Source of the DNA: Qaidamihabitans albus
GTDB taxonomy: Bacteria; Actinomycetota; Actinomycetes; Mycobacteriales; Pseudonocardiaceae
Direction: 5' to 3'
Assembly (NCBI RefSeq): GCF_016464705.1
Contig: NZ_JAEHOB010000023.1
Coordinates: 8,910-65,859, forward strand
DNA: 56,950 nucleotides
Shown: positions 4,872 through 50,142 of the stretch, one piece after another
How positions within the stretch are numbered: the first letter of the stretch is position 1
How the letters are laid out: every line of letters starts with the position of its first letter
Program-made: the position numbers and the translations under genes
Notes under the pieces: generated by a model
The model's database searches: none
The model's input: only the letters and a program-made list of their open reading frames with translations
Told to the model about the DNA's origin: nothing

Positions 4872-5801
4872 ATGCGTTTCGGTGAGGTCCGGGTCGTTCC
4901 CGTCAACGGGTACGGCCCGGAGGACACGCTGGTCGACGCGGACGGGCAGGTCTACACCGGGCTCGCCGACGGCCGCATCATCCGGATCAGCCAGGACGGC
5001 AGGCGCATCGACGCGGTCGCGGACACCGGCGGGCGGCCGCTCGGCCTGGAGTTCTACGGCGACGAGCTGCTCGTCTGTGACGCGTACCGGGGCCTGCTGG
5101 TGGTGTCGCCCGCCGACGGTGCCGTGCGGACTCTCACCAGGGAGGTCGCGGGCAGGCCGATGGTGTTCTGCAACAACGCCGCGGTCGCGGCGGACGGCAC
5201 CGTCTACTTCAGCGACTCCTCGGCCCGCTTCCCGATCACCCACTGGCGCGACGACCTGATCGAGCAGACGGGCTCCGGCAGGCTGCTGCGCCGCGGCCCG
5301 GACGGTGCGATCGACGAGCTCGCCGGCGGGCTCCAGTTCGCCAACGGGGTCGCGCTGTCCGCGGACGAGTCGTTCGTGACGGTGGCCGAGACGGGGGACT
5401 GCCGGGTGCGCCGCGTCTGGCTGACCGGCGAGCGGGCGGGCAGCACCGATGTCTTCGCCGACGGCCTTGCCGGGCATCCGGACAACACCTCCACCGGCAG
5501 CGACGGGCTGATCTGGGTGACGCAGGCGAGCCCGCGCGTGGCGGCACTCGACATGGTGCGGCGCCTGCCCGGCGCGCTGCGGGCACTGGTGCGGCGGTTG
5601 CCGACCTCGGTGCAGCCGTCCCCGGCCCGGACCTGCGGGGTGCTCGGCATCGACTCCGAGGGCACGATCGTGCACGACCTCTCCGGCGAGGTCAGCGGCT
5701 TTCACATGCTCACCGGAGTGCGTGAGCGCGATGGCGTGCTCTACTTCGGCAGCCTGGAGGAGCGGTCGATCGCCATCACCACGGTGCCGGTCCGCTCGTG
5801 A
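4872..5801 (+). CDS. SMP-30/strictosidine synthase-like beta-propeller protein
   Basis: 309-aa six-bladed beta-propeller protein. Start at 4872 follows AGGAGG at the ideal distance; it lies eight bases after the phosphatase stop. Blade motifs are typical of the strictosidine-synthase-like/gluconolactonase group: N-N-A-A-V-A-A-D-G-T-V-Y-F-S-D-S-S, Q-F-A-N-G-V-A-L-S and G-H-P-D-N-T-S-T-G-S-D-G. In bacteria such proteins are usually lactonases or hydrolases; no signal peptide is seen. The last codons are TCG TGA inside the 46-bp repeat at 5795. Confidence 0.85.
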   Translation: MRFGEVRVVPVNGYGPEDTLVDADGQVYTGLADGRIIRISQDGRRIDAVADTGGRPLGLEFYGDELLVCDAYRGLLVVSPADGAVRTLTREVAGRPMVFCNNAAVAADGTVYFSDSSARFPITHWRDDLIEQTGSGRLLRRGPDGAIDELAGGLQFANGVALSADESFVTVAETGDCRVRRVWLTGERAGSTDVFADGLAGHPDNTSTGSDGLIWVTQASPRVAALDMVRRLPGALRALVRRLPTSVQPSPARTCGVLGIDSEGTIVHDLSGEVSGFHMLTGVRERDGVLYFGSLEERSIAITTVPVRS

Positions 5802-5840
5802 GTGCGTACGCGAGTTCTAACTCGCGTGGCCACTCACGAG
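5795..5840 (-). repeat. 46-bp palindromic element, copy 1
   Basis: Outer arms CTCGTGAGTG/CACTCACGAG pair perfectly; an inner 9-bp stem ACGCGAGTT/AACTCGCGT surrounds a CT loop. Core GAGTTAGAAC reads on the minus strand. The arm TGAs are the stop codons of both convergent genes (4872-5801 plus, 5834-7324 minus). It probably also acts as a bidirectional transcription terminator. Confidence 0.95.
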
Positions 5841-7324
5841 GGTGAGGTGCCGATGCTGAAGCCCGCGTCCGTGCCCAGCTCGATCTTGGCGCCGAGCGGG
5901 TCGCGGTCGAGGAGCCCGGCGATCGTCTCGGGATGCTCGCTGGAGGCGGCGGTCCACGCGCCGTCCGGCAGGGTGGCCAGCACGATCCCGCGTTCCGGCT
6001 CGCCCGACCTGTCGTGCAGAACGGTGTAGGTCTCCACCGTCGCCGGTCCGGTGGCGCCGGTGACGACTGCTCGCCGGGGCAGCGCGGCCACCTCGGCCGA
6101 GACCTGGTGATGGGCGTAGGGCTCGGTGGGCGGATCGGCGGCGAGCACGACGGCGGCGTGCTTGGTCAGGAACCAGCCGACGGCCGTGGCCAGCCCGTAC
6201 TCGCCACGGGTGCCGCGCAGCCGTCCGACGAGCGTGGCCAGCGCGTGCGTCACGTAGTTGCTGCCGGGCCCGCCCGCGAACGTCAGCCCACCGGTCACCG
6301 TCGGTGGCCGCGCCGGATCGGCGAGGTCGGCGTCGCTCAGGCCGAGTTCGGTGGCCGCCACCTGCACCGCCGAGGGGAAGCACGAGTACAGGTCGAGATG
6401 GCCGATGTCGCCGATCCCGAGACCGGCGTGCCGCAGCGCGGCCGAGGTGGCGGCGGCGATCGCGGGGGAGCGGTCCAGCCGCGGCCGCTCCGAGACGAAC
6501 CAGTGGTCGTCGGCGCCGGCCGTGGCGTGCACGAAGACCCAGTTCTCCCGTGGGATACCGGCCGACTCCGCGGTGGCCGCCGAGCAGAGCAGCAGCGCGG
6601 CGGCCTGGTCGACGAAGATGTTGGCGGTCAGCAGCTTGCGGTACGGCAGCGCGGCCATCCGGTTGTGGGGTCCGACCGTGACGATGTCCCGCGCACCGGG
6701 CGGGTCGGTCACCGCGGCGTGCGGGTTGTGCCGGGCGACGTCGGCGAAGCGGGCCCAGAGCCGGCCGAGCCGGTCGACGTGCGCGGGCAGGTCGCGGCCC
6801 GCGGCCGCGCGGATCGCGTTCTCGAACAGCGGGTAGAAGCCCAGGGGCAGGCGGAGCTGCGCGGCGGCCTCGGCCGGGTGCAGCGGCTCGCGGTCGACGC
6901 CGAGCATGCGGGTCGGCGCGGTGCCCTCGGGCTGCTTCGGGCCGCCGCCGTAGCGGCCGGCGAGCAGTGCCTTGACCGCCTCGCCGCCGGCCAGCAGCGT
7001 CGCGTCCAGCTCGCCGCGGCGGATCCGGCTCGCGGCGTCGGCGAGCAGTTCGACCGGGCTGGTGCCGCTGGTGTGGGTGTAGACGGTCTCAGCGGGGGAG
7101 AGGCCCAGCTCCACGGCGAGCAGCGCGGCCGGGTCGGCGGTGCCCCACGAGAAGCTGTCGGCCACCCCGACCGAGTGCAGGCGCTCGCGCAGCGCGGGCG
7201 CTCCGGCGTCGGCGAGCGCGGCTTCGGCGGCCAGCCGCATCAGCTCCCGTGGGGAGGTGGCTGCTGTGCTGTCCCGCAGGGTGTGCTGACCTGCGCCGAC
7301 GAGTACCGGGGTCCGTGGGTCCAC
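5834..7324 (-). CDS. Thiolase-like protein with C-terminal OB-like domain
   Basis: 496-aa thiolase-superfamily protein, annotated from the GTG at 7324 (R-T-P-V-L-V-G-A-G begins the fold); longer upstream reading has no conserved sequence. The N- and C-halves show the thiolase layout, with C-F-P-S-A-V-Q and G-G-P-G-S-N-Y-V-T-H-A near the C-terminal active-site loops. The nucleophilic Cys region reads T-H-T-S-G-T-S-P, without Cys. A last domain of about 90 residues resembles the additional domain of mycobacterial thiolase-like protein type 1 (TLP1). Classical acetyl-CoA acetyltransferase activity is therefore doubtful; acyl-CoA binding or sterol side-chain chemistry is more likely. Divergent from the MFS exporter. 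Confidence 0.82.
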   Translation of the reverse strand: MDPRTPVLVGAGQHTLRDSTAATSPRELMRLAAEAALADAGAPALRERLHSVGVADSFSWGTADPAALLAVELGLSPAETVYTHTSGTSPVELLADAASRIRRGELDATLLAGGEAVKALLAGRYGGGPKQPEGTAPTRMLGVDREPLHPAEAAAQLRLPLGFYPLFENAIRAAAGRDLPAHVDRLGRLWARFADVARHNPHAAVTDPPGARDIVTVGPHNRMAALPYRKLLTANIFVDQAAALLLCSAATAESAGIPRENWVFVHATAGADDHWFVSERPRLDRSPAIAAATSAALRHAGLGIGDIGHLDLYSCFPSAVQVAATELGLSDADLADPARPPTVTGGLTFAGGPGSNYVTHALATLVGRLRGTRGEYGLATAVGWFLTKHAAVVLAADPPTEPYAHHQVSAEVAALPRRAVVTGATGPATVETYTVLHDRSGEPERGIVLATLPDGAWTAASSEHPETIAGLLDRDPLGAKIELGTDAGFSIGTSPS

Positions 7325-7473
7325 GACTCGACGGTAGCACTTACTGGCGCTGTGCCAATAGTGTGGAGCGTGACGCCGAACACTCGAAAACGCGTGGCAC
7401 GGCAATTTCGCCGCCGATAGCATGGACCGGCAACTGGGGCTTTTTCTCTTCTTCTTCCGTCGGAAATGGAATC

Positions 7474-9042
7474 ATGACGACTTCGCAACTGAATAACGAC
7501 TCTGTCGAGGACAGACTCGACAGCGGCGTCCTGAAAATCGCCGCTGTGGTGGTGCTCGGCTCCATCATGGCGATCCTCGACGTGACGGTGGTCAACGTCG
7601 CACTCCAGGCGCTCACCCTGGAGTTCGAAACGTCCTTCGACACCATTCAATGGGTGGCGACCGGTTACATGCTGGCGCTGGCCACGGTCATTCCCGTTAC
7701 CGGCTGGGCCTCGGATCGTTTCGGCACGAAAAGGCTCTACCTGCTCGCCATCACGCTGTTCCTGGTCGGTTCGATGCTGGCCGGAATGGCGTGGAACGTC
7801 GAAACGCTGATCGTGTTCCGCGTCGTGCAGGGGTTCGGCGGCGGCATGCTGATGCCGGCGGGTATGACGATCCTGACCAGGGCGGCGGGCCCGCACCGGG
7901 TCGGCCGGGTGATGGCGGTGCTCGGCGTGCCGATGCTGCTGGGCCCGATCGGCGGTCCGATCCTCGGCGGGTGGCTGGTCGACTCGGTGAGCTGGCGCTG
8001 GATCTTCTACATCAACGTGCCGATCGGGATCATCGCCCTGATCGCGGCCTGGCGGCTGCTGCCGAAGGACGACCCCGAACCGGCCGAGCGGTTCGACTTC
8101 GCCGGGATGCTGATGCTCTCGCCCGGCCTGGCGATGCTGATCTACGGAGTCTCCGAGATCCCGGGCGCGGGCGGGATCGGCGCGACCGGCGTGTGGCTGC
8201 CGATCGTGCTCGGTGCCGGGCTGATCGTCGGCTTCGTGCTGCGCGCACTACGGATCGACAACCCGCTCGTCGACCTGCGCCTGTTCCGGGACCGCACCTT
8301 CGCGGCCGCCTCGGCGACCATGGCGTTGTTCGCGGTGGCCTTCTTCGGCGCGATGCTGCTGTTGCCGACGTACTTCCTGCTGGTCCGGGGCGAGTCGGCG
8401 CTGCAGGCGGGGCTGTTGCTTGCGCCCCAGGGACTCGGCGCGATGCTCACCATGCCGGTGGCGGGCAGGCTGGCCGACAGGGTCGGTCCTGGCAAGGTAG
8501 TGCTGCCGGGCCTCGGGCTGATCCTGGCCGGGCTCGCCATGTTCTCGCAGGTCGGCCCGGTGACGCCGTACTGGCAGCTGCTGGCGGCCCTGTTCGTGAT
8601 GGGGATGGGCCTCGGCGCCACGATGATGCCGATCATGTCCGCCGCCCTGCAGACGCTGACCAGCAAGAACGTCGCCAGGGCATCGACCGCGCTGAACATC
8701 ATCCAGCAGACCTCGGGCGCCATCGGCTCGGCGGTGATGTCGATCATCCTGGCGGGCCTGCTGGCCGGGAAGTTCGGCGTGCCGACCAGCCAGGGCCAGC
8801 TGGCCGCCACCGGCGCGCTGGCGGACCCGCGGACGCGGGACGCCGCCGCGGTGCTGGCGGCCGACTCGTTCGCCACGACGTTCACCTGGGCGGTGGTGCT
8901 GATCGCGCTGTGCCTGGTCCCGGCGCTGTTCCTGCCGCGGCGCCCCGCCGTGCGCCCGGACCGGAGCGGGGACACGGGAGACAGGGGAGACGCCGACGGC
9001 ACCGGGGACGCCGAGGCAGCGCCGGTGATGCTCCCGCACTGA
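7474..9042 (+). CDS. MFS multidrug exporter, DHA2 (EmrB/QacA) family
   Basis: 522-aa integral membrane drug:H+ antiporter with about 14 membrane segments. Start at 7474 has GGAAATGGA just upstream; the open frame upstream carries no homology. Family motifs are visible: L-D-V-T-V-V-N-V-A-L (motif D1 region), G-W-A-S-D-R-F-G-T-K-R (motif A), F-R-V-V-Q-G-F-G-G-G and G-P-I-G-G-P-I-L-G-G (motif C of exporters). The C-terminus is an acidic Gly-Asp-rich tail. It converges on a TetR gene whose stop is only four bases away, so that regulator probably controls efflux. Confidence 0.92.
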   Translation: MTTSQLNNDSVEDRLDSGVLKIAAVVVLGSIMAILDVTVVNVALQALTLEFETSFDTIQWVATGYMLALATVIPVTGWASDRFGTKRLYLLAITLFLVGSMLAGMAWNVETLIVFRVVQGFGGGMLMPAGMTILTRAAGPHRVGRVMAVLGVPMLLGPIGGPILGGWLVDSVSWRWIFYINVPIGIIALIAAWRLLPKDDPEPAERFDFAGMLMLSPGLAMLIYGVSEIPGAGGIGATGVWLPIVLGAGLIVGFVLRALRIDNPLVDLRLFRDRTFAAASATMALFAVAFFGAMLLLPTYFLLVRGESALQAGLLLAPQGLGAMLTMPVAGRLADRVGPGKVVLPGLGLILAGLAMFSQVGPVTPYWQLLAALFVMGMGLGATMMPIMSAALQTLTSKNVARASTALNIIQQTSGAIGSAVMSIILAGLLAGKFGVPTSQGQLAATGALADPRTRDAAAVLAADSFATTFTWAVVLIALCLVPALFLPRRPAVRPDRSGDTGDRGDADGTGDAEAAPVMLPH

Positions 9043-9045
9043 GCG

Positions 9046-9684
9046 CTATCGCGCCCTGGTGCCGGTCTGCTCCGGTACCTCGGGGAAGACGTCCCTGACG
9101 AGCGTCAGCAACGACCTGCTCAGCAGGGTGTGCACCTGCTGGCGGTTCAGGGCGCCGCGCACCAGCCATTCGCGGCCCGCCGCCTTCACCATGCCGCCGT
9201 AGGCCCGCACCAGGGCATTCAGCTCGTTCCAGTGGGCATCGTCCGGACTCAGGCCGACCGCTTCGAGAACGCGGTCGGCCGAGTTCCGGTCGGCCTCGTC
9301 CAGGATCCGCTCCACCTCGACGTCCCGGCCGATGCCCTCCGGGGTGATCGCGGCGAGCCACATCTTCTCCTGCTTGCTGACCATGTCGAGGAACCACTCG
9401 ACGGCCGCGTCGGTGCGCTGTTCGAGGGAGCCCTCGGGCAGCCGTTTGACCGCGAAGTGCGGCACGGTGAGCGCGCGCTTGACCACGGCCAGGTACAGGT
9501 CGCGTTTCGTGCCGAAGTAGTGGTTGATGAGCCCGCGGGCGACACCGGCGCGCGCGGCGATGTCCGATGTGGACACCTCACCGTACGGGCGCTCCCCGAA
9601 CAGGTCGGCCGCGCAGGCGAAGATCTGTTCCTTGCGTTCGTCGGGCTCCAGCCTTCGCCATTTGGGCGCCGATTCCGTGGTCAT
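9046..9684 (-). CDS. TetR/AcrR family regulator
   Basis: 212-aa one-component repressor. The N-terminal 65 residues form the TetR helix-turn-helix (I-A-A-R-A-G-V-A-R-G-L-I-N-H-Y-F-G-T-K-R-D-L); the C-terminal ligand domain is not assignable to a subgroup. It lies 13 bases downstream of the GMC oxidoreductase on the same strand, probably co-transcribed, and convergent with the MFS exporter. Either could be the target. Confidence 0.9.
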   Translation of the reverse strand: MTTESAPKWRRLEPDERKEQIFACAADLFGERPYGEVSTSDIAARAGVARGLINHYFGTKRDLYLAVVKRALTVPHFAVKRLPEGSLEQRTDAAVEWFLDMVSKQEKMWLAAITPEGIGRDVEVERILDEADRNSADRVLEAVGLSPDDAHWNELNALVRAYGGMVKAAGREWLVRGALNRQQVHTLLSRSLLTLVRDVFPEVPEQTGTRAR

Positions 9685-9697
9685 GAAGTGGATTTTC

Positions 9698-11407
9698 TCA
9701 CGTCGCGGCCTCCTCCGCCGGAAAGAGGGGCAGGTGCAGCGCGCCGGGTGCGGTGCCGGGGACCGCCGGCCGCGCGGGCACTACCGGGCTTACCCGCCGG
9801 TAGGGCTCGCCGAGCGGGGGACGGGGATCGCGCTCACCCTTGTTCGGCCACAGTGCCATCGCCCGCTCGGCCTGCGCGGTGATGGTCAGTGAGGGGTTGA
9901 CCCCTAGGTTCGCGGAGATCGTGGAGCCGTCGACCACGTGCAGGCCCTCGTACCCGAACAGCCGCTGGTAGGGGTCCACCACGCCGGTCGCCGGGGACTC
10001 GCCGATCGCGCAGCCGCCGATGAAGTGACCGGTGAGCGGGACGTTGACCAGGTCGTTCCAGCCACCACCCGGAATGCCGCCGATCTTGTCCGCGACCCTT
10101 CGCGTCACCTCGTGCCCGCCCGGGATCCAGACGGGGTTGGGCTCGCCGATGCCCTGCCTCGTGCGCATCCGCCTGCCGAGCACCCCGCGCCGCGTGTAGG
10201 TGGTCACCGAGTTGTCGAGTGTCTGCATCACCAGCAGCGCGATCGTCTGTTCCGACCAGTGCCGGGGGTTGTGCAGCGTGGGCAGCACGCGCCGCTGCCG
10301 CCACATCTCGCGCAGGCCCAGCAGCCAGCGCGGCTTGCCGGGGGCGGGGTCGGTGAGCACGGCACCGAGAAGGGCGAGCAGGTTGCTGCCCTTGCCGTAG
10401 CGAACAGGCTCAACATGGGTCACCTCGTCCGGGTGAATGGAAGAGGTGATCGCCACGCCGCGGTGGAACTCGCTGTCCCGCCGCCTGGTGCGTGCGGCGA
10501 GCACGGCCTCGGAGTTCGTCCGGGAGAGCACGCCGAGCCGTTCCGAGATGCGGGGGAGCACGCCGCGGTCGCGCAGCCTGTGCAGCAGTCGCTGCGTGCC
10601 GAGCGAGGCGGCGGAGAACACGACCTGCTCCGCGGTGAACGTGCGCCTGCGCCACGGCCGTCGGGTGTGGACGGTCGAAACCGCGTAGCCGCCACCGGAC
10701 AGGGGTCGCACCTCGGTCACCGTGGTCATCGGATGCACCCGCGCGCCGGCCTGCTCGGCCAGGTGCAGGTAGTTCTTCACGGTCGTGTTCTTGGCGCCGT
10801 GCCTGCACCCGGTCATGCACTCACCACAGTGAATGCACGAGCGCCGGGCGGGACCTGCGCCGCCGAAGTAGGGATCGGCCACCTCCTGGCCGGGTGCGGT
10901 GTCCTCGCCGCCGAAGAAGACACCGACCTGGGCGGGGTGAAAGGTGTGCCCGATGCCCATGTCCGCGGCGACCTCGCGCATCACCTCGTCGGCCGGTGTA
11001 ACGCGAGGGTAGGTCGCGACCCCGAGCATGCGCCTCGCCTGGTCGTAGTACGGTGCGAGCTCATCCTTCCAGTCGGTGATGGCCGACCACTGTGGATCTT
11101 CGTAGAAGGCGTCCGGTGGCTCGTACAGCGTGTTGGCGTAGACCAGCGAGCCACCGCCCACGCCCGCGCCGCTGAGCACCAGCGCGTCCCTGAGCGGGGT
11201 GATGCGGAAGATGCCGGTGCAGCCGAACTTCGGCGCGAACAGGTAGTCGCGTACCCGCCACGACGTCGTGGCGAACTCGTGGTCGGCGAATCGCCTGCCC
11301 ATCTCGAGCACGCCGACCCGGTAGCCCTTCTCGGTGAGCCGCAGTGCGCTGACGCTCCCGCCGAAGCCCGAGCCGATCACGAGGACGTCGTAGTCGAAGC
11401 CTGCCAT
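9698..11407 (-). CDS. GMC oxidoreductase, ChoD-like (putative cholesterol oxidase)
   Basis: 569-aa FAD-dependent oxidoreductase similar in length and motifs to M. tuberculosis ChoD (Rv3409c). Start at 11407 (M-A-G-F-D-Y-D) places the dinucleotide fold V-I-G-S-G-F-G-G-S at the N-terminus. G-A-G-V-G-G-G-S-L-V-Y is the second flavin motif, and N-V-P-L-T-G-H-F-I-G-G-C-A-I-G plus V-N-P-S-L-T-I-T-A-Q-A-E form the C-terminal active-site region. A cysteine cluster S-C-I-H-C-G-E-C-M-T-G-C lies in the middle, unlike secreted cholesterol oxidases and compatible with an Fe-S centre. No signal peptide. The natural substrate is not proven to be cholesterol even in the mycobacterial member. Confidence 0.87.
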   Translation of the reverse strand: MAGFDYDVLVIGSGFGGSVSALRLTEKGYRVGVLEMGRRFADHEFATTSWRVRDYLFAPKFGCTGIFRITPLRDALVLSGAGVGGGSLVYANTLYEPPDAFYEDPQWSAITDWKDELAPYYDQARRMLGVATYPRVTPADEVMREVAADMGIGHTFHPAQVGVFFGGEDTAPGQEVADPYFGGAGPARRSCIHCGECMTGCRHGAKNTTVKNYLHLAEQAGARVHPMTTVTEVRPLSGGGYAVSTVHTRRPWRRRTFTAEQVVFSAASLGTQRLLHRLRDRGVLPRISERLGVLSRTNSEAVLAARTRRRDSEFHRGVAITSSIHPDEVTHVEPVRYGKGSNLLALLGAVLTDPAPGKPRWLLGLREMWRQRRVLPTLHNPRHWSEQTIALLVMQTLDNSVTTYTRRGVLGRRMRTRQGIGEPNPVWIPGGHEVTRRVADKIGGIPGGGWNDLVNVPLTGHFIGGCAIGESPATGVVDPYQRLFGYEGLHVVDGSTISANLGVNPSLTITAQAERAMALWPNKGERDPRPPLGEPYRRVSPVVPARPAVPGTAPGALHLPLFPAEEAAT

Positions 11408-14466: not shown

Positions 14467-15276
14467 ATGACGGACCGACCGGCGCGCAGTGGCGGCAAGC
14501 CCGTCACGCGGCTGCGGGTGCTGCGCACCGAGCGCATCACCCCGCACATGATCAGGGTCGTCTCCGGCGGGGAGGGGCTCGCGGCGTTCGTCGCCAACGA
14601 GTTCACCGACAGCTACGTCAAGGTGCTCTTCCCGGTGCCGGGCGTCGCCTACCCCGAGCCGTTCGACATGCGGGTGATCAAGGCCGAGCTGCCGCGCGAG
14701 CAGTGGCCACGCCAGCGCAGCTACACGGTTCGTTATCACGACCCGCACGCCGGTGAGCTGGCGATCGACTTCGTGCACCACGGTGACGAGGGGCTCGCAG
14801 GCCCGTGGGCGGCGAGCCTGCGACCCGGCGACGAGTTCCTGGTCATGGGCCCCGGCGGCGCCTACGCGCCGAGCGCGGAAGCCGACTGGCACCTCTTCGT
14901 CGGCGACGAGAGCGCGCTGCCGGCCATCGGCGCGTCCCTGGAGGCGGTGCCCGCCGGTGCGCCGGTGCGCGCCCTGCTGCTGGTGGAGGACGCGGCGGAG
15001 GAGCAGCCGCTGCCGACCAAGGGCGACGCGCAGATCCGCTGGCTGCACCGCTCGGCGCAGGACGATCTGGTGGCCGCGGTGCGCGCGCTGGAGTTCCCCG
15101 GCGGCACGGTGCACGCGTTCGTGCACGGCGAGGCGGGGTTCGTCCGGGAGCTGCGCAGGCACCTGCTGGACGAGCGCGGCGTCCGCAGGGACATGCTCTC
15201 GATCTCCGGCTACTGGCGGCGCGGCAAGACCGACGAGGCCTGGCGCGAGGAGAAGGCCGCCGAAAAAGCCTCGTGA
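14467..15276 (+). CDS. Siderophore-interacting protein (FAD-dependent ferric reductase)
   Basis: 269-aa SIP-family flavoprotein, predicted to reduce ferric siderophores in the cytoplasm and release iron. The start at 14467 is preceded by GAGGAG at seven bases; two other in-frame starts (14449, 14452) lie before that site and are less likely. The FAD-binding motif R-S-Y-T-V-R-Y and the G-P-G-G-A-Y segment are typical, and the C-terminal SIP domain ends with S-G-Y-W-R-R-G-K-T-D-E-A-W-R. An iron box upstream supports the role. The stop is the TGA of a 46-bp repeat. Confidence 0.92.
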   Translation: MTDRPARSGGKPVTRLRVLRTERITPHMIRVVSGGEGLAAFVANEFTDSYVKVLFPVPGVAYPEPFDMRVIKAELPREQWPRQRSYTVRYHDPHAGELAIDFVHHGDEGLAGPWAASLRPGDEFLVMGPGGAYAPSAEADWHLFVGDESALPAIGASLEAVPAGAPVRALLLVEDAAEEQPLPTKGDAQIRWLHRSAQDDLVAAVRALEFPGGTVHAFVHGEAGFVRELRRHLLDERGVRRDMLSISGYWRRGKTDEAWREEKAAEKAS

Positions 15277-15315
15277 GTGCCTACCCGAGTGAGAACGCCG
15301 GTAGCCACCCACGAG
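15270..15315 (+). repeat. 46-bp palindromic element, copy 2a
   Basis: Outer arms CTCGTGAGTG/CACCCACGAG carry a single mismatch. Core CGAGTGAGAAC. Supplies the TCG TGA end of the siderophore-interacting protein gene. Directly followed by copy 2b. Confidence 0.93.
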
Positions 15316-15316
15316 G

Positions 15317-15362
15317 GTCGTGAGTGGCTACACGAGTTAGAACACTGTTACGCACTCACGAG
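15317..15362 (+). repeat. 46-bp palindromic element, copy 2b
   Basis: Second copy in direct tandem, one base after 2a, with arms GTCGTGAGTG/CACTCACGAG and core CGAGTTAGAAC. Its middle differs from 2a, so it is not a recent duplication of it. It lies wholly intergenic, 21 bases before the next start. Confidence 0.93.
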
Positions 15363-15383: not shown

Positions 15384-16631
15384 ATGACTGATCTCGAGGT
15401 GGAGACCGACCCCGGCGAGCTCGGGTTCGACCAGGAGCGCCTGAACCGGATCGACGACCGGATGGCGCGCTACGTCGACGAGGGCCTGCTGCCCGGCTGG
15501 CTCGCCGTCGTCAGCAGGCACGGCAAGATCGTGCACGTTTCCACCCGGGGCCGGCGCGACGTCGAGGCCGGGCTGCCGGTCGAGCGGGACACGGTGTGGC
15601 GCGTCTACTCGATGACCAAGCCGATCACCTCGGTCGCCGCGATGATGCTCGTCGAGCAGGGTGTGTTCGACCTCGCCGACCCGATCTCGGCATGGCTGCC
15701 GGAGTTCACGGACATGCGCGTCTACACCAAGGGCTCGGCACTGCGCCCCGCCACGGTGCCCGCCACCGAGCCGATCCGCGTGTGGCACCTGCTCACGCAC
15801 ACCGCCGGGCTCACCTACGGCTTCCACCACGCGCACCCGGTCGACGCGATGTACCGGCAGGCGGGCTTCGAGCTGTTCTCACCGCCCGGGATGGACCTGG
15901 CCGCGTGCAGCGCGGCGTGGGCCGAGCTGCCGCTGATGTTCGAGCCCGGCACGGAGTGGAACTACTCGGTGGCCACCGACGTGCTCGGCAGGCTGGTCGA
16001 GGTCGCGTCCGGGCAGCCGTTCGACACCTTCCTGGCTGAGCGCATCCTCGGCCCGCTCGGCATGACCGACACGTCGTTCCAGGCCACCGGCGGCGCACTG
16101 GACCGCCTGGCCGCGCTCTACGCGCCCGAGCCCGGCTCCCGGCGCGCGGTTCGCCACGACGCCGTCGGGGAGGCCATCACCCGCACGCCCGCGTTCCTCT
16201 CCGGGGGCGGTGGCCTCGCCTCCACCGCGGCCGACTACCACCGGTTCACCCAGTTCCTGCTGCGCGGCGGTGAGCTCGACGGGGTGCGCCTGCTCGCGCC
16301 GCGCACCGTCGCGTTCATGACCCGCAACCACCTGCCCGGCGGGGCGGACCTCGACGAGTTCGGCCGTCCGCTCTACGCCGAGGTGCCGTTCAACGGCTTC
16401 GGCTTCGGGCTCGGCTTCTCGGTGCTGCAGGACCCGGTGAAGGCCAGGACGCTGGCCAGCGCGGGCGAGTTCGCCTGGGGCGGCCTCGCGAGCACCGCGT
16501 TCTGGGTCGACCCTGCGGAGGATGTCACCGTGCTGTTCTTCACCCAGCTGATGCCCTCCAGCACCCACCCGCTGCGCCAGCAGCTGCGCCAGCTCGTCTA
16601 CCAGGCCCTCGTGAGTGGGAAACCGAGTTAG
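15384..16631 (+). CDS. Serine hydrolase, class C beta-lactamase-like (CubicO)
   Basis: 415-aa cytoplasmic beta-lactamase-fold hydrolase. The nucleophile motif S-M-T-K (S-x-x-K) lies near residue 77, and the Y-S-V in E-W-N-Y-S-V fills the Y-x-N position. No signal peptide, so an esterase or amidase role is more likely than cell-wall or antibiotic hydrolysis. The last six residues (V-S-G-K-P-S) and the TAG stop are encoded by a 46-bp repeat, so the native C-terminus may originally have ended near Q-A-L. Confidence 0.88.
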   Translation: MTDLEVETDPGELGFDQERLNRIDDRMARYVDEGLLPGWLAVVSRHGKIVHVSTRGRRDVEAGLPVERDTVWRVYSMTKPITSVAAMMLVEQGVFDLADPISAWLPEFTDMRVYTKGSALRPATVPATEPIRVWHLLTHTAGLTYGFHHAHPVDAMYRQAGFELFSPPGMDLAACSAAWAELPLMFEPGTEWNYSVATDVLGRLVEVASGQPFDTFLAERILGPLGMTDTSFQATGGALDRLAALYAPEPGSRRAVRHDAVGEAITRTPAFLSGGGGLASTAADYHRFTQFLLRGGELDGVRLLAPRTVAFMTRNHLPGGADLDEFGRPLYAEVPFNGFGFGLGFSVLQDPVKARTLASAGEFAWGGLASTAFWVDPAEDVTVLFFTQLMPSSTHPLRQQLRQLVYQALVSGKPS

Positions 16632-16653
16632 AACCCGGTTTCCCACTCACGAG
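16608..16653 (+). repeat. 46-bp palindromic element, copy 3
   Basis: The most perfect copy: the stem runs 18 bp, CTCGTGAGTGGGAAACCG against CGGTTTCCCACTCACGAG, with a 10-base loop containing TTAGAAC. Here the upstream gene reads in the other frame and stops at the core TAG. It lies between two convergent genes and is a strong candidate terminator for both. Confidence 0.95.
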
Positions 16654-37133: not shown

Positions 37134-37926
37134 CCCGCACCCTTCCGGCGCCCGCCCGCCGCAGATCCCGCCGGAGCTGGTGCCGCAGCACGTCGCGCTC
37201 GTGATGGACGGCAACGGCCGTTGGGCGAACCAGCGCGGGCTGCCCCGGATCGAGGGGCACAAGCGCGGCGAGGCCGTGATGATCGACGTCGCCAGCGGGG
37301 CCGTCGAGCTGGGCGTGAAGTGGCTCTCGGTGTACGCCTTCTCCACCGAGAACTGGAAGCGCAGCCCCGACGAAGTGCGCTTCCTGATGGGGTTCAACCG
37401 CGACACGATCCGCAGGCAGGTCGACTACCTTGGCTCGATCGGCGTGCGCATCCGCTGGGCAGGCCGCCGGCCGCGGCTTTGGCGCAGCGTCATCAAGGAG
37501 CTGCAGGCGGCGGAGGAGAAGACGAGGCACAACACGAAGCTCAACATGACGATGTGCGTCAACTACGGTGGCCGCGCGGAGGTCGGTGACGCGGTGCGCC
37601 AGATCGCCAGGCTCGCCGCCGAGGGCCGGATCGACCCGGACAAGGTCGACGAGCGCACCATCGCGAAGTACCTGTACCAGCCCGAGATGCCGGACGTGGA
37701 CCTGTTCCTGCGGCCCTCGGGCGAGCTGCGCACGTCGAACTTCATGCTGTGGCAGTCCGCGTACGCGGAGTTCGTCTTCCAGGACACCCTCTTTCCCGAC
37801 TTCGACCGCACGAAGCTGTGGGACGCCTGCCTGGAGTACGCGCGGCGCGATCGCCGCTTCGGTGCGGCGGTCGACAGAACAGGCACCGGAACCGATACCG
37901 CCGCCGCGACGAAGGGTTCGTCATGA
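37078..37926 (+). CDS. uppS: Decaprenyl/undecaprenyl diphosphate synthase (long-chain cis-prenyltransferase)
   Basis: 282-aa cis-prenyltransferase that makes the lipid carrier for cell-wall synthesis (Rv2361c-like). M-D-G-N-G-R-W-A with the catalytic Asp, Y-A-F-S-T-E-N-W-x-R, and [11 protein letters not shown] are conserved. The GTG at 37078 is taken as start because GGAGG lies six bases upstream; it is inside recO. Four-base overlap with the next gene. Confidence 0.95.
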
Positions 37927-38339
37927 CCTCGGAAGCCGCTGACACCGCCGCCTTGCTCACCGCGGCGCGCGAGTCGCTCGAACGCTATCTCGAGGTGCAC
38001 GTCGACGACGACGGCGCGCTGACGTTCTCGCACGCCGACGTGCCGTGCGTGATCCAGGCGACGCGCCTGGCCGAGGGGCTGAACGTGCTGAGCCTGACCT
38101 GCGTGGTGGCCTGGGACCTGCCCGACGACAAGACGGTCGCCGCCTCGGTGGCGGAGCGCGCGGGCCAGGGCCTGTTCGGCACGCTCGGCGTGGTGCACAC
38201 CGAGCGCGGGATGGACCTGACGCTGCGGTACGCGTTCCCGGCGCAGGGCCTCGGCGACGCCCCGCTCGGCACCCTGCTGATGCTGGTGGTCTCCACCGCG
38301 TCCCAGGTTCGGACCGACCTGCTCGGCGCCGACTCGTGA
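37923..38339 (+). CDS. YbjN-like conserved protein
   Basis: 138-aa soluble protein in the position of Rv2360c, between uppS and the zinc genes. The fold looks like the YbjN / secretion-chaperone-like family ([11 protein letters not shown] and L-R-Y-A-F-P segments), with no catalytic motif. ATGA overlap with uppS suggests co-expression. The stop is contributed by a 46-bp repeat. Confidence 0.65.
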
Positions 38340-38378
38340 GTGCCCACCCGAGTTAGAACACCGCTGGCCACTCACGAC
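38333..38378 (+). repeat. 46-bp palindromic element, copy 4
   Basis: Arms CTCGTGAGTG/CACTCACGAC (last pair mismatched), core CGAGTTAGAAC; inner arms pair poorly. Its TGA ends the YbjN-like gene. It lies between two co-oriented genes, 26 bases before the permease start. Confidence 0.93.
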
Positions 38379-40158: not shown

Positions 40159-40204
40159 CTCGTGAGTGCCTGCGCGAGTTAGAACTCGCCTGCGCACTCA
40201 CGAG
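40159..40204 (+). repeat. 46-bp palindromic element, copy 5
   Basis: Arms CTCGTGAGTG/CACTCACGAG perfect; inner 7-bp stem GCGAGTT/AACTCGC around AG. The right-arm TGA, read on the minus strand, is the stop codon of the Fur-family gene. Separates the convergent permease and regulator operons. Confidence 0.95.
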
Positions 40205-40641
40205 CGGTGACCAGGGCTCTTGGCGCGTGCGCAGTCGGCGCAGGTGCCGACGATCTCCACGGTGTGGCTGATGTCGGAGAAGCCGTTGCCGGTCGCGATC
40301 TTCTCGGCCCACCGTTCGACGGCAGGCCCCTCGATCTCGACCGTGTGGCCGCAGTGCCGGCACACGAGATGGTGGTGATGATGCGAGGAGCAGCGGCGGT
40401 AGACGGCCTCGCCCGAGCCCGTGCGCAGGACGTCGATCTCCCCTGCCTCGGCCAGTGACTGCAGCGTGCGGTACACGGTGGTCAGGCCGACGCCCTCGCC
40501 ACGCTTGCGCAGCTCGTCGTGCAGGTCCTGCGCCGAGCGGAAGTCGTCGACCTCGCCCAGCAGCTCCACCACCGCGGCGCGCTGCCTGGTCGCGCGACGG
40601 CCCGGCATGGGCGCCCGGCCGCGGGTCTCCGTTGTGCTCAT
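40198..40641 (-). CDS. zur: Fur-family regulator, probable Zur (FurB)
   Basis: 147-aa metalloregulator. Winged helix R-R-A-T-R-Q-R-A-A-V-V-E-L-L with L-T-T-V-Y-R-T-L, then a His-rich metal site H-H-H-H-H-L-V-C-R-H-C-G and C-terminal C-A-D-C. It corresponds by synteny to Rv2359 (FurB/Zur) and is coupled (ATGA) to an ArsR/SmtB gene upstream, as in mycobacteria. It should repress zinc-uptake genes and possibly the convergent permease pair. Confidence 0.93.
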   Translation of the reverse strand: MSTTETRGRAPMPGRRATRQRAAVVELLGEVDDFRSAQDLHDELRKRGEGVGLTTVYRTLQSLAEAGEIDVLRTGSGEAVYRRCSSHHHHHLVCRHCGHTVEIEGPAVERWAEKIATGNGFSDISHTVEIVGTCADCARAKSPGHRS

Positions 40642-44477: not shown

Positions 44478-44479
44478 CC

Positions 44480-45124: not shown

Positions 45125-45144
45125 TCCGGCCTAAGCTTGCGGCG

Positions 45145-46428
45145 ATGACCCCGATCGACGCCTACACCGCGCACGACCGCGAGCGCAGGCTGGCCGAAAC
45201 GCCGAAGGGTGCCGGGCTGCCCGGCGCCCGTTCCGACGGGCGCACGCCGTTCGCCCGGGATCGTGCGCGCGTGCTGCACTCCGCCGCGCTGCGCAGGCTC
45301 GCAGGCAAGACGCAGGTCGTCGGGCCCGGCGAGGGGGCGGAGGTGAGCGGTGTCCCGCGCACCAGGCTGACGCACTCGCTCGAGGTGGCGCAGATCGGCC
45401 GCGGGATCGCCGAGGAACTCGGCGCGGATCCCGACCTGGTCGACACGGCGGGCCTGGCGCACGACATCGGCCATCCGCCGTTCGGGCACAACGGTGAGCA
45501 GGCGCTCGAGGAGTTCGCGCGGGACTGTGGTGGCTTCGAGGGCAACGCGCAGACGCTACGCATCCTCACCCGGCTGGAGCCGAAGGTGCTCGGCTCCGAC
45601 GGCCGGAGTTTCGGGCTGAACCTCACCCGGGCGTGCCTCGACGCGGCCACGAAGTATCCGTGGCCCCGCGAGGCGGGATCGGCGAAGTTCGGCGCCTACG
45701 CCGACGATCTCGACGCGTTCCGGTGGATGCGTGACGGAGCGCCCCAGCGCCGTCCGTGCCTGGAGGCGCAGATCATGGACTGGTCCGACGATGTGGCCTA
45801 CTCGGTGCACGACGTCGAGGACGGGGTGCTCGCGGGCCGGATCTCGCTGCACGTGCTGCGGGACACCGAGGAGCGCGCGGCGCTCGCCGAACTGGCCGCG
45901 AAGCACTTCTCCACCAAGTCGGTGTCCACATTGGAGGACGCTGCGCGGGAGCTGCTGCGGCTTCCGGTGCTCGCCGAGCTGGCCCGGCCAGGAGCGGACT
46001 CCTCGATGGCGGCCCAGGTGGCCCTGAAACGGCTGACCAGTGAGCTGGTGGGCCGGTTCGCGGGTGCGGCGGTGACCGGCACCCGGGCGGTGCACGGGGA
46101 CGGCCCGCTGTGCCGCTACGGCGCGGAACTTGCGGTGCCGGAGCAGGTGGCCGCCGAGGTCGCGCTGCTCAAGGCACTGGCGCTGCGCTACGTGATGAGC
46201 GACCGGCGGCGGCTCGCCATGCAGGAGGGCCAGCGGCAGCTGCTCGCGGAGCTGGCCGCGGCGCTGCTCCGGCGTGCGCCCGAGGCACTCGACCCCGCCT
46301 TCCGGCCCGCCTGGGCGGAGGCAGGCGGTGACGCGGCCAGGCTGCGGGTGGTGGTCGACCAGATCGCCTCGCTGACCGACGCGCAGGCGCACGCCTGGCA
46401 CGCGTGGCACGCCGGCCGGCAAGGCTGA
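45145..46428 (+). CDS. dgt: Deoxyguanosinetriphosphate triphosphohydrolase-like protein
   Basis: 427-aa HD-domain dNTP triphosphohydrolase, Rv2344c-like. The metal site is H-S-L-E-V-A...[31 protein letters not shown] carries the distal ligand. Start at 45145 (M-T-P-I-D-A-Y) follows a TGA of the previous gene by 20 bases. It would lower dNTP pools; located near dnaG. Confidence 0.94.
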
Positions 46429-46476
46429 GCGTTACTCGATGGTGTGATGATCGAGGCGTCACGGTAGCGTCGGGGG

Positions 46477-47592
46477 ATGGCTGGCAGCGTCTCCGAACGG
46501 GCTCATCTCCGGTTCGCGCTCGCGGTGCACCGGGCGAACGCGGGGCACGGCCGCGACGCGTGTTACTCGCCGTACTCGGTGGCCAGCGCCCTCGGCCTGG
46601 TCACCCGGGCGGCGCGCGGGGACACCGCGGGCGAGGTGGCCGGGCTGCTCGCCGGGGGTGTCGACGGCCTGGAGGAACAGGCGGAGCTGCTGCGCAAGGC
46701 CGCCGTGCTGAACGCGCACGGCGGGCAGGACGAACCGGTGCTCGCCGTGTCGAACATCCTGTGGGCCTGGGACGCCCTGCCGATCGACACGGGGTTCCTC
46801 GACGAGCTCGCCGCCTGGCCGGGCGGCCGGGCCGCCGCGGCGCCGTTCGTCACCGATCCCGAGGGTGCCCGCGCCCGGATCAACGCCGATGTCGCGCGCA
46901 CCACGCAAGACCTCATCCCCGAGCTCCTCGGACCCGGCTCCGTCGCCGACGACACCGTGGCGAGCATCGTCAACGCGCTCTACCTGCGCGTCGGCTGGAC
47001 CTACCCGTTCCGGGCGGAGGACACCGCGGAGGCCGACTTCCACGCCCCCTCGGGCACCCGGCGGGTGCCGACGATGCGGCAGTCGGAGCAGCTCGGCTAC
47101 GCCGCGCGCGACGGCTGGCAGCTCGTGGCTCTGCCCGCGGTCGGCGGGGTCGAGGCCGTCGTGCTGCTGCCGGATGCCGAGCTCGGCGCCGCCGAGTCCA
47201 CCCTGGACGAGGCGTTGCTGTCGGATCTGCTGTCCAGCAGGCAGAACCCGCAGGTGAACCTGTCCGTGCCGAAGTTCTCGCTGGACTTGCGTAGCGAGCT
47301 CACCGAGACGTTGAAGGCACTGGGCGTGCGGACCATGTTCACCCGCGAGGCGGACTTCGGGTCCCTCTCCGCCGATCCCCGGCTGGTCGTGTCCGACGTG
47401 CTGCACGAGGCGGTGCTGCGGGTGGACGAGAGCGGCCTGGAAGGAGCGGCGGCCACGGCGGTGATGATGCGGCTGGTCTCGATGCCGGCGGGCGAGCCCG
47501 TCACCGTGGAGGTGGACCGGCCCTTCCTGCTGCTGGTCCGCCATGCCGATACCGGCGCCGTCTACTTCCTGGCGCGGGTCGTCGAGCCGTGA
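46477..47592 (+). CDS. Serpin (serine protease inhibitor)
   Basis: 371-aa full-length serpin. Y-S-P-Y-S-V-A-S-A-L near the N-terminus (S-P-x-S signature), N-A-L-Y-L-R-V-G-W in the breach/shutter area, and the C-terminal D-R-P-F-L-L-L-V-R-H match the family. The reactive-loop hinge is E318-S-G-L-E-G-A-A-A-T-A-V (to 329), small residues typical of inhibitory serpins; the scissile region would be within M-M-R-L-V-S-M (330-336). There is no signal peptide, so it should act inside the cell. Its stop overlaps the start of the next gene. Confidence 0.92.
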   Translation: MAGSVSERAHLRFALAVHRANAGHGRDACYSPYSVASALGLVTRAARGDTAGEVAGLLAGGVDGLEEQAELLRKAAVLNAHGGQDEPVLAVSNILWAWDALPIDTGFLDELAAWPGGRAAAAPFVTDPEGARARINADVARTTQDLIPELLGPGSVADDTVASIVNALYLRVGWTYPFRAEDTAEADFHAPSGTRRVPTMRQSEQLGYAARDGWQLVALPAVGGVEAVVLLPDAELGAAESTLDEALLSDLLSSRQNPQVNLSVPKFSLDLRSELTETLKALGVRTMFTREADFGSLSADPRLVVSDVLHEAVLRVDESGLEGAAATAVMMRLVSMPAGEPVTVEVDRPFLLLVRHADTGAVYFLARVVEP

Positions 47593-49394
47593 GCCCGACA
47601 GGCACCCTGCGGGCGGTGGTGTCGCAGCCGGCCCGGGAGCCGGCGTCCACCGCGGGCAGGCGGCTGTGGCCGGGCGTCGCCGACGCGGCTGCGCTGCTCG
47701 GCTTCGCCGTGGCCGCCTTCCTGATCTACCGTCCACTGTGGATGGATCTGGAGCGCGGCTACCTGTCGAGCAGTGTGCAGGACCAGAACATGTGGGAGTG
47801 GTTCTTCGCGGTCACGGCGCATTCGGTCGCCAACCTGGAGAACCCGCTGTCGAGCACGCTGCAGAACTTCCCGCTCGGCGTGAACCTGATGTCCAACACG
47901 GTCATGCTCGGGGTGGGCGTCCCGCTCACGCCCGTCACGCTGGCGTTCGGCCCCACCGTGACGTGGGCGCTCGCGCTGACCGGGGGCCTCGCCGGGACGG
48001 CGGCGGCGTGGTACTGGGTGCTGTCGCGGCACATCGTGCGCACCCGGATCGGCTCCGCGGTGGGCGGTGCGTTCTGCGCCTTCGCACCGCCGATCATCTC
48101 CCACGCCAACGCGCACCCGAACTTCGTGGTGCTCTTCGTCCTCCCGCTCATCGTGCTGTGGCTGCTCAAGCTGGCCCGCGGCGAGCGGCCGGTACGCAAC
48201 GGGGTGATCCTCGGACTGCTGCTGGCGTACCAGGTCTTCCTCGGCGAGGAGCCGCTGCTCATCGCGGCGACCACGCTGCTCGTGTTCGCCGGGGTCTACG
48301 CGCTGTCCAGGCCCGAGGAGACGCTGGAGCGGGCCCGGCCGCTCGGGATCGGGCTCGGCGTGGCGGCGGGGGTCGCGCTGGTGCTCGTGGCGTTCCCGCT
48401 GTGGTGGCAGTTCTCCGGCCCGCAGAGCTACAGCACGCTCGAACACGGCTTCGTGGGCAACGACGCCGCGGCGTTCACCACGTTCGCCACCGAGTCGGTC
48501 GCCGCCAACGCGGAGGCGGCGAAGGACCTCTCGCTGAACCGCACCGAGGAGAACGCGTTCTTCGGCTGGCCGCTCGTCATCCTGATGGTCGTCGTGACCG
48601 TGTGGCTGTGGCGGGTGGCGGCGGCGCGCGCGGTCGCGGTGGCGATGTTCGCGATGGCGTGGCTGTCGATGGGCGTCCTGCTCGTGGTCGACGGCACCGC
48701 CACCTCGATACCGGGGCCGTGGCTGCTGCTGTTCGACCGGCCGCTGTTCGACTCGGTGCTCGAGTCCCGGTTCGCGCTCGGTTGCGTGCCGGCCATCGGC
48801 ATCCTGCTGGCGATGGGCACCGAGCGTGCGCTGCGGCTGGGCGGGAACGTCCCGGAGTGGCGCCTGACCTGGCGGGTGGTGTGGTTCGGGGCCCTCGTGC
48901 TCGCGCTCGTGCCGATCGCGCCCACCGAGCTGCGGGTCGGTGAACGCGACGTGGCCCCTGCGTTCTTCACCGGCGGTCTGTGGCGCGATCACATCGAGCA
49001 GGGCGGGTCGCTGGTGGTCGCGCCGCTGCCCGACACCGGTGACGCCGAGGCACTGCACTGGCAGGTCGAGGCCGGTTTCGGGTTCGCGCTCGTGGAGGGC
49101 TATTTCGTGGGGCCGGGCACCGACGGCCGCGGCCGGTACGGGGCGCTGCGGCGGCCCACCTCGGAGCTGCTCGAGGAGGCGGACGAGTCGGGCACGGTGC
49201 CGCAGATCACCGCGGAGGACCGGGCGGCCGCCGCCGAGGACCTGCGCTACTGGCGCGCGGACGCGGTGGTGGTCCGCGCGCACGCCGGCGCGGACCCTGT
49301 GCGCCGGACCGTGGAGCTGCTGTTGGGCCGGGCCGGGCAGGTGATCGGCGGCGTCCACCTCTGGGACCTGCGCCCGCCGCCCACCCCCTCGTGA
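47589..49394 (+). CDS. Polytopic membrane protein, GT-C glycosyltransferase-like
   Basis: 601-aa membrane protein with about ten to twelve helices (residues 30-420) and a soluble C-terminal domain (about 440-590). The arrangement Q-D-Q-N-M-W-E-W-F-F in the first extracytoplasmic loop resembles the acidic catalytic loop of GT-C glycosyltransferases that use polyprenyl-linked sugars, and uppS nearby would supply such carriers; substrate unknown. GTGA overlap with the serpin is probably operon packing. Its TCG TGA end belongs to a 46-bp repeat. Confidence 0.75.
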   Translation: MSPTGTLRAVVSQPAREPASTAGRRLWPGVADAAALLGFAVAAFLIYRPLWMDLERGYLSSSVQDQNMWEWFFAVTAHSVANLENPLSSTLQNFPLGVNLMSNTVMLGVGVPLTPVTLAFGPTVTWALALTGGLAGTAAAWYWVLSRHIVRTRIGSAVGGAFCAFAPPIISHANAHPNFVVLFVLPLIVLWLLKLARGERPVRNGVILGLLLAYQVFLGEEPLLIAATTLLVFAGVYALSRPEETLERARPLGIGLGVAAGVALVLVAFPLWWQFSGPQSYSTLEHGFVGNDAAAFTTFATESVAANAEAAKDLSLNRTEENAFFGWPLVILMVVVTVWLWRVAAARAVAVAMFAMAWLSMGVLLVVDGTATSIPGPWLLLFDRPLFDSVLESRFALGCVPAIGILLAMGTERALRLGGNVPEWRLTWRVVWFGALVLALVPIAPTELRVGERDVAPAFFTGGLWRDHIEQGGSLVVAPLPDTGDAEALHWQVEAGFGFALVEGYFVGPGTDGRGRYGALRRPTSELLEEADESGTVPQITAEDRAAAAEDLRYWRADAVVVRAHAGADPVRRTVELLLGRAGQVIGGVHLWDLRPPPTPS

Positions 49395-49433
49395 GTGCCC
49401 ACGCGAGTGAGAACGCCGGTTGCCACTCACGAC
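49388..49433 (+). repeat. 46-bp palindromic element, copy 6
   Basis: Arms CTCGTGAGTG/CACTCACGAC, core CGAGTGAGAAC. Supplies the stop of the GT-C-like gene and lies 23 bases before the ECF41-type promoter of the next gene. Confidence 0.93.
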
Positions 49434-49456
49434 GTCTGACCAGCACAAACGGCCGC

Positions 49457-49483
49457 TGTCACATCTCGCGTCGCCGTCTCGTC
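49457..49483 (+). promoter_or_regulatory. ECF41-type promoter
   Basis: TGTCACA at 49457-49463 and CGTC at 49480-49483 are separated by exactly 16 bases, the -35/-10 arrangement reported for ECF41 sigma factors. It stands 38 bases before the start of the carboxymuconolactone-decarboxylase-like gene. Confidence 0.8.
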
Positions 49484-49521
49484 CTCCGGGGTGAACCACG
49501 TACCGAAACCGAGGAGGGCTC

Positions 49522-50103
49522 ATGCCACGCATCAAGGGACTGTCGACCAAGCAGGCCGGTCCGCTCGTGCGGCTGGCGTACCGGTTCGCACGGCGCCGTT
49601 ACGGCGCGGTGCCCGAGCCGTTCACCGTGTTCGCGCACCACCCGCGTTTGATGCGGGCGGCGTCGGTGCACGAGCTCATGACCGGGCGGGCCGCGCGCAC
49701 GCTTCCGGTGAGCGTCCGCGAGCTTGCCGTGTACCGCACGGCGGTACGGCTGGGCTGCTCATGGTGCGTCGACTTCGGCACGATGCTGCAGAAGCACGAG
49801 GGGCTGGACATCGAGCGGCTGACGAGCATCGACGACTACCTGACATCGCCGAAGTTCAGCCGGCAGGAGCGGCTCGCGATCGCCTACGCCGACGCGATGA
49901 CCGACACCCCGGTCCGTGTCACCGACGAGCAGGTGGCCGAGTTGGAGCGGGAGTTCGGTCGCCGGGGCGTGATCGAGCTGACGTACCTGATCGGGCTGGA
50001 GAACCAGCGGGCCAGGGTCAACAGCGCACTGGAGATCACCGACCAGGGCTTCACCTCGGGCGACGCGTGCCGGATCCCCGTACCGGCCGACGTCGACTCG
50101 TGA
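49522..50103 (+). CDS. Carboxymuconolactone decarboxylase/AhpD-like protein
   Basis: 193-aa protein of the CMD/AhpD alkylhydroperoxidase-like fold. The redox pair C79-S-W-C82 sits in E-L-A-V-Y-R-T-A-V-R-L-G-C-S-W-C-V-D, which is the proton-relay/peroxidatic motif of the family. GAGGAGGG precedes the ATG. Gene pairs of a COE protein (carboxymuconolactone decarboxylase, oxidoreductase or epimerase) with an ECF41 sigma factor are well known; here the pair is convergent and the promoter matches. A peroxide or organic-radical detoxifying role is plausible. Confidence 0.9.
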   Translation: MPRIKGLSTKQAGPLVRLAYRFARRRYGAVPEPFTVFAHHPRLMRAASVHELMTGRAARTLPVSVRELAVYRTAVRLGCSWCVDFGTMLQKHEGLDIERLTSIDDYLTSPKFSRQERLAIAYADAMTDTPVRVTDEQVAELEREFGRRGVIELTYLIGLENQRARVNSALEITDQGFTSGDACRIPVPADVDS

Positions 50104-50142
50104 GTGCCCACGCGAGTGAGAACTCGTGTAGCCACTCACGAG
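50097..50142 (+). repeat. 46-bp palindromic element, copy 7
   Basis: Arms CTCGTGAGTG/CACTCACGAG perfect, core CGAGTGAGAAC. As in copy 1, both arms serve as stop codons: TGA 50101-50103 for the CMD-like gene and, on the minus strand, 50138-50136 for the sigma factor. Confidence 0.95.

Follow-up and report, generated by a model that had tools for sequence, protein, structure and literature searches.

The window analyzed here, a stretch of 56,950 nucleotides from Qaidamihabitans albus, carries eight copies of a 46-bp palindromic element close to the ends of genes. We consider it fairly likely that this element is a short, non-autonomous intergenic repeat family, similar to repetitive extragenic palindromes (REPs) and miniature inverted-repeat transposable elements (MITEs), that is tolerated or has been co-opted at gene 3' ends. 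The family is regarded as new, and its arms and centre are probably read by some factor. The layout is TCGTGAGTG-N9-GTTAGAAC-N9-CACTCACGA, in which the outer arms and the centre are nearly invariant and the middle nine bases on each side are variable. A first-pass annotation of the window had placed eight copies of exactly 46 bp, and all eight were recovered at those positions (Table 1).

The host belongs to the Pseudonocardiaceae and is a relative of Prauserella with a genome of 6.53 Mb. The two-arm pattern occurs at 454 places in this genome and at none for a reversed control, and GAGTTAGAAC with no more than one mismatch occurs eight times in the window versus 0.56 expected, so that chance is excluded. 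The exact N9-GTTNNAAC-N9 spacing was found at 403 places in the host genome and nowhere in the other 393 genomes of a class-wide sample (394 in total, two of the others from the same family). Within the family, 52 of 120 genomes, including the host, have a loose two-arm pattern with a free interior of 4 to 34 bases; many of these have a single copy, some have other interiors, and the counts differ widely inside genera. A stricter core pattern matched 4 of 60 relatives, again including the host. Moreover, 18 copies with perfect arms in stretches of the genomes G004, G078, G088, and G108 are also 46 bp long with middles of their own, and one of seven named loci of 11 to 14 kb, that of Amycolatopsis anabasis (L060), has two copies. 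Overall, the 46-bp palindrome is found here only in Pseudonocardiaceae. Phage and plasmid collections gave no match to one 46-mer from genus g16, the host-genome variant not having been searched there, and no description of the palindrome appeared among the titles and abstracts of the open-licence literature, in the matches listed.

Placement was analyzed in 855,978 bp of the host genome (the window, contig C1, and 160 kb of contig C2), or about 13% of the total. Copies were accepted if the two 7-bp arms together had no more than one mismatch and the length was 45 to 47 bp, which yielded 83 copies, 81 of them exactly 46 bp. Genes were called by a homemade codon-usage caller rather than taken from a curated annotation, so that individual gene ends are subject to some error. 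The host genome served as its training set, and the caller was also applied to the G004, G078, G088, and G108 stretches. None of the 83 copies lies inside a called gene, defined as a gene extending more than 60 bases before and more than 40 bases after the element. Copies lie between convergent genes in 42 of 83 cases versus 136 of 777 adjacent gene pairs overall (odds ratio 4.8, P = 1e-10). By class of gene pair, elements are present in 39 of 125 convergent, 18 of 187 wide tandem, 1 of 239 close tandem, and 2 of 128 divergent gaps. In its preference for gene 3' ends, and as a set of many short intergenic imperfect palindromes, the element is like REPs and bacterial interspersed mosaic elements. 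A passage of PMC12306157 reports that REPs within 15 nt of a stop codon stall ribosomes.

Comparison with orthologous sites reveals how the family changes over time. The comparison genome, putatively Prauserella shujinwangii, was the only one of the same genus in the samples drawn, and a thiolase-like gene of the window has 81% identity to a P. shujinwangii record (NZ_PVNH01000006.1). Out of 43 elements tried, 32 had orthologous flanks there, and 11 of these rows had an element, which represent 10 distinct copies because two neighbouring host elements met the same one. Conversely, 9 of 12 resolved elements of the comparison genome have a counterpart in the host. At the ten shared sites, the arms are identical at 179 of 180 positions, and the middles agree at 5.7 of 18 positions versus 4.6 for non-orthologous pairs (permutation P = 0.008). 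Within each genome, the middles agree at 10.1 and 12.5 of 18 positions, far above the orthologous value. The middles are therefore species-typical even at shared sites, which implies concerted evolution. Selection on the arms and centre, together with copying between sites, would be the simplest account of this pattern.

Turnover was also apparent in genera g16 and g4, where the sequences were compared by eye. At the first genus-g16 site, 17 loci have both flanks (query included); four contain the element, one of them beside other repeats, seven have another long palindrome, and three have shorter remnants, whereas a long mixed stretch, no palindrome, and an N-run are seen at one locus each. 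At the second site, 14 of 15 loci have both flanks, although this comparison is looser, with the downstream flank aligning only 150 to 270 bases away in 5 of the 14. Here, one locus has a shortened copy, one an intact copy beside others, two have relics beside other palindromes, four have a different palindrome family, and six have no long palindrome. Both sites look like replacement by other palindromes. Other intergenic palindrome families of about 45 to 60 bp (GTGAAGGCCTCCTTC, GTCGCGAAAGCCACTTTCG, CGCATTTAGTCCTCTACTTGCG, and GTGTCATGAAAGGGTCGTTCAGGAC) alternate at the same gene-end sites in genus-g16 genomes. In genus g4, three sister genomes are without a copy present in G004, and in all three the alignment resumes one base past the right edge of the element. 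G078 and G185, which are 89 to 96% identical in most collinear blocks, have one copy in common with its centre flipped, and where G078 has another copy, a remnant next to a different palindrome is present in G185.

Many copies, read on the GTTAGAAC strand, extend into CCTGGTCACCT before and CGGTGACCTGCGG after the element. These flank marks are present on at least one side of 36 of the 83 elements by a loose motif and of 17 by a stricter extension test. A MITE-like repeat of about 150 bp has the 46-mer at its centre (for example, L126:6413-6561); like MITEs, this long form has imperfect terminal inverted repeats (GAGGCTGTCTTCGAACC / GAGCCTGTCCTTGATCC) and is too short for a transposase gene. 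Several near-full copies exist in the host genome, with 39 further scored places at 81 to 99% identity over part or all of the query and eight hits besides the query at 90 to 96% over more than 130 bases. The element had been proposed to be mobile or amplified. The hundreds of copies, the species-typical middles, the empty sites, and the long form bear out amplification, whereas movement itself was not seen.

An enzyme that reads the arms and centre would let copies spread or overwrite one another, and copies would be lost by deletion. Poor tolerance in promoters, operon interiors, and coding sequence may explain why they persist mainly at the 3' ends of genes. A gene whose final codons came to be covered by a copy would take its stop from the arm, at the first stop in frame (TCG TGA), and other frames would be selected against because translation would run into the hairpin. 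As a secondary role, the RNA hairpin, which averages about -29 kcal/mol on each strand, may serve in either orientation as a 3'-end structure or weak terminator.

Several observations weigh against the repeat-family explanation. In G004, one copy falls within a called gene, and two of the six G088 copies with a 13- or 14-of-14 arm score and the core lie in divergent gaps, one with perfect arms and one with a single arm mismatch; 3'-end placement is thus not absolute in relatives. The long form was sought only in the host genome and its flanks are recognized at 17 of 83 elements, so that it may be a later composite rather than the parent. The remaining 66 copies, without recognizable long-form flanks, set the element apart from MITEs. 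A possible further difference is that no consistent target-site duplication was seen: none common to 30 aligned long-form loci was apparent by eye, two of these loci show flank repeats of 13 to 18 bases, and the empty sites are too diverged on the left side. Likewise, no autonomous insertion sequence with the same ends came to light in a one-ended search, in which 29 places with one end (up to two mismatches) included no insertion sequence-like facing pair by eye, the other end not having been searched genome-wide. In genus g4, the left edge of the empty sites is ragged, and the sequence on that side differs. The exact centre 8-mer occurs only once in 856 kb outside recognized elements, and point-decayed relics are therefore scarcer than neutral decay predicts. 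Similarly, arms that are intact at shared, hence old, sites look more like a constrained site than a neutral repeat. As for a mobilizing enzyme, the Y1 transposase family (PF01797) has no match in the host genome and was found in 5 of 14 control genomes. A search for a REP-associated tyrosine transposase (RAYT) had been recommended in the first-pass annotation; with the Y1 family missing, a RAYT-driven REP is rejected, and the element differs in this respect from REP systems that have a RAYT.

REP sequences form species-specific subfamilies and carry a GTAG/CTAG-type foot beside the hairpin. The 46-mer is unlike them in its near-invariant outer arms and centre with variable middles. Moreover, no GTAG-type foot was found in the flank composition or among the listed commonest flank k-mers, GGTGA being the commonest at flank positions 2 to 6 (23 of 166).

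The strongest alternative, possible although we think it less than probable, is that the 46-mer would be the DNA site of a putative two-fold symmetric binding protein, such as a recombinase, a transposase, or a nucleoid or chromosome-organization protein, and that 3'-end placement merely keeps the site away from promoters. The architecture of the element is consistent with such a site: in addition to the exact 9-bp spacing and the variable middles, each of positions 2 to 10 holds the identical base in 160 to 162 of 162 half-sites, and in the DNA sampled from two genomes, 110 of 123 exact arms have a partner arm at 45 to 47 bp. The AG centre does not follow gene direction in its orientation: among 34 tandem cases it reads GTTAGAAC in 11 and GTTCTAAC in 18. 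Between the host and the comparison genome, the centre has matching orientation in 5 of the 10 orthologous pairs. With both orientations in tandem contexts, an RNA-level polarity of the core was rejected. However, no candidate protein has been identified, the middles are species-typical rather than free, and exact-arm copies are patchy within genus g4 (32, 1, 0, and 0), which is odd for a housekeeping site, although this pattern would miss arm variants. The binding-site explanation overlaps the repeat-family explanation where the protein is the copying enzyme; indeed, our confidences in the explanations overlap because being a repeat is compatible with serving as a binding site or a terminator as well. 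A bolder proposal, which we put forward tentatively and judge unlikely, is that the 46-mer would be the two-part, two-fold symmetric site of an undiscovered recombinase or DNA-binding protein of the Pseudonocardiaceae that copies, flips, and overwrites sites, with each species rewriting the middles of its hundreds of sites in concert while arms and centre do not change, and that the sites have been co-opted as combined translational and transcriptional gene ends.

It seems similarly unlikely that the element would be primarily a functional bidirectional terminator or mRNA 3'-end hairpin, selected at its sites, with a factor reading the arms and loop. Like intrinsic and bidirectional terminators, it is predicted to form a stable hairpin just after stop codons, and it is enriched between convergent genes. 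A passage of PMC1590033 describes intergenic stem-loops after stop codons that are enriched between convergent genes, and part of PMC8269248 reports bidirectional transcript 3'-end positions in Streptomyces clavuligerus. The mean folding energy of the element is -29.3 and -29.5 kcal/mol on the two strands, versus -11.1 for shuffled sequences. The two halves also pair better than shuffled ones, with 474 of 729 middle pairs complementary versus 441 ± 11 for shuffled halves (about 3 SDs above the shuffled mean), and with a mean energy of -29.2 versus -27.5 ± 0.5 when halves were shuffled among elements, below all 60 shuffles. Strong inverted repeats occur in element-free gaps of the same classes (convergent 17%, wide tandem 18%, close tandem 2%, divergent 2%, and coding controls 1%), indicating that the element is placed much as other 3' hairpins are, in the same classes of site. 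In related species, other long palindromes are found at the position of the element.

However, the element has no U-tract: on the sense strand, the 10 nt that follow the element have a T fraction of 0.142 versus 0.147 in the genome, and TTTT is present in 1 of 166 flanks. A canonical intrinsic terminator is thereby rejected, and the conserved sequence and length and the membership in one repeated family are likewise unlike intrinsic terminators. A hairpin does not require the length of exactly 46 bp seen in 81 of 83 copies. A strict RNA hairpin with compensatory middles is weakened by the pair count, which lies below the largest of 2000 shuffles (483), and by perfectly pairing middles in only 8 of 81 copies, although the mean energy is lower than in every one of the 60 shuffles. 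Among 20 resolved element-free sites of the comparison genome, where those orthologous to copies 15270 and 15317 form one interval, 4 have a strong inverted repeat versus 7 of 20 control convergent sites. Functional replacement by another hairpin is thus not above control, which speaks against an indispensable terminator role, as do the 6 of 14 loci at the second genus-g16 site that have no long palindrome by eye. Termination in both directions is nonetheless plausible from placement and predicted fold. Placement and predicted fold fit the suggestion that the element is a combined translation and transcription stop, but the missing U-tract does not, nor does the fact that most resolved empty sites are without a substitute hairpin.

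The relation to stop codons was determined from element/gene-end pairs within a range that opens at position -80 and closes shortly beyond the element; genes close to two elements were counted twice. Among 107 pairs, 34 have the stop at offset 5, 12 deeper inside the element (offsets 9 to 33), and 61 upstream, 54 of the latter in the 30 bases before the element and 7 further upstream; 14 of the 83 elements have no gene end in the scanned range. Offsets -1 to 4 are unused, and by reading of the sequence all but -1 are unable to encode a stop. Stops inside elements fall on the first TGA in 34 of 46 cases versus one third expected from frame chance (P = 3e-8, treating genes as independent). This is a strong frame preference but not a rule. 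In the window, 8 of 12 pairs (11 distinct gene ends) are at offset 5, and the fixed frame relation that had been read from it does not hold in general, with 61 of the 107 nearby gene ends upstream; the rule is looser than the window, an extreme sample, makes it appear. Among stop codons, TGA is the most frequent (262 of 368 genes), and 40 of the 780 genes called in the sampled DNA end in TCG TGA.

Sixteen genes stopped at offset 5 have a usable orthologue in the comparison genome, and an element was detected at 4 of these orthologues. The C-terminal tails differ by 0 residues in 7 and by no more than 2 residues in 13, with extremes of -6 and +4. Likewise, the tail differences are -3, 0, 0, 0, and 3 for five genes that stop deeper inside the element, and there is none in 18 of 21 genes that stop upstream of it. 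These small differences imply that gene ends are little moved by gain or loss of the element. These orthologues, most of them without a detected element, thus largely end at or near the same codon, the outcome under which the first-pass annotation would regard the stop-codon link as chance. Of the 12 orthologues of offset-5 genes without a detected element, 11 end in TGA; 2 of the 12 tails hold a shortened palindrome with TCGTGA/TCACGA ends, probably a relic of an element, and at some of the others a different palindrome follows the gene. We infer that the stop codon was acquired opportunistically, with selection for the immediately stopping frame. Such selection can explain the frame preference, and targeting would not be needed.

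That the element targets stop codons on insertion, as the first-pass annotation had suggested, is highly improbable and as a rule is rejected by the offsets in the sampled genome: the 34 of 46 inside stops at offset 5 and the 11 of 12 TGA-ending orthologues are set against 61 of 107 stops upstream and 12 deeper, 14 of 83 elements without a gene end in range, the general prevalence of TGA, and the two shortened palindromes, which may mean that a shared stop descends from an element since lost.

These results indicate that a GC-rich actinobacterial lineage keeps and rewrites an abundant gene-end repeat without the known REP enzyme family, and that such repeats set the C termini of genes. If an enzyme or factor does read the site, it would constitute a new mobilization or termination system in the Pseudonocardiaceae, a family that includes antibiotic producers. 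The 34 gene ends in the sampled DNA that use the TGA of an element also call for caution among annotators.

Within the window, the TGA at offset 5-7 is the stop of eight called genes, five on the plus strand (copies 5795, 15270, 38333, 49388, and 50097) and three on the minus strand (copies 5795, 40159, and 50097), and the core TAG at offset 22-24 is the stop of a ninth, in agreement with the first-pass annotation. Its description of arms and core is sound overall and needs small corrections: copy 15317 starts with GTCG instead of CTCG, copies 38333 and 49388 finish in CGAC, copy 5795 has its core GTTAGAAC on the minus strand, and copy 15270 has the right arm CACCCACGAG with one arm mismatch (CACCCAC), which makes it one of 5 copies, out of 83 sampled, whose arms score 13 of 14. 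The arm 10-mer STCGTGAGTG has 15 exact matches in the window, all within the eight elements.

Table 1. Copies of the 46-bp element in the window, with the genes they end and the state of the orthologous site in the comparison genome
Position	Feature	Associated gene ends	Orthologous site
5795..5840	46-bp element between convergent genes	TGA 5799-5801 ends + gene; reverse TGA 5834-5836 ends - gene	Without this element; carries a different palindrome
15270..15315	46-bp element	TGA 15274-15276 ends + gene 14467-15276 (siderophore-interacting protein family)	
15317..15362	46-bp element, one base after copy 15270	Ends no gene	
16608..16653	46-bp element	Core TAG 16629-16631 ends + gene 15384-16631	Element in common, middle different
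38333..38378	46-bp element	TGA 38337-38339 ends + gene 37923-38339	No element found
40159..40204	46-bp element	Reverse TGA 40198-40200 ends FUR-family gene 40198-40608 (-)	Element in common
49388..49433	46-bp element	TGA 49392-49394 ends + gene 47589-49394	No element found
50097..50142	46-bp element between two genes	TGAs of the element end + gene (ends 50103; weak, below cut-off CMD match) and sigma-70-family gene (-, ends 50136)	Element in common

The palindrome at the site orthologous to copy 5795, on contig C6 of the comparison genome, is of the GCAGTGAAGGCCACCTTCACTGC type, which is also present at two other examined gene ends of that genome. The right flank of copy 40159, CGGTGACCAGG, resembles a long-form arm. 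The interval 15270-15362 consists of two elements arranged head to tail and one base apart, the right arm of the first being mutated. An Rfam scan of the window at the gathering threshold gave a tRNA gene (54750-54822) as its sole match, the 46-mer matching no curated RNA family. On contig C1 of the host, at about 530600-531300, two copies with the same middle lie 466 bp apart within a duplicated segment that itself contains repeats of about 90 bp.

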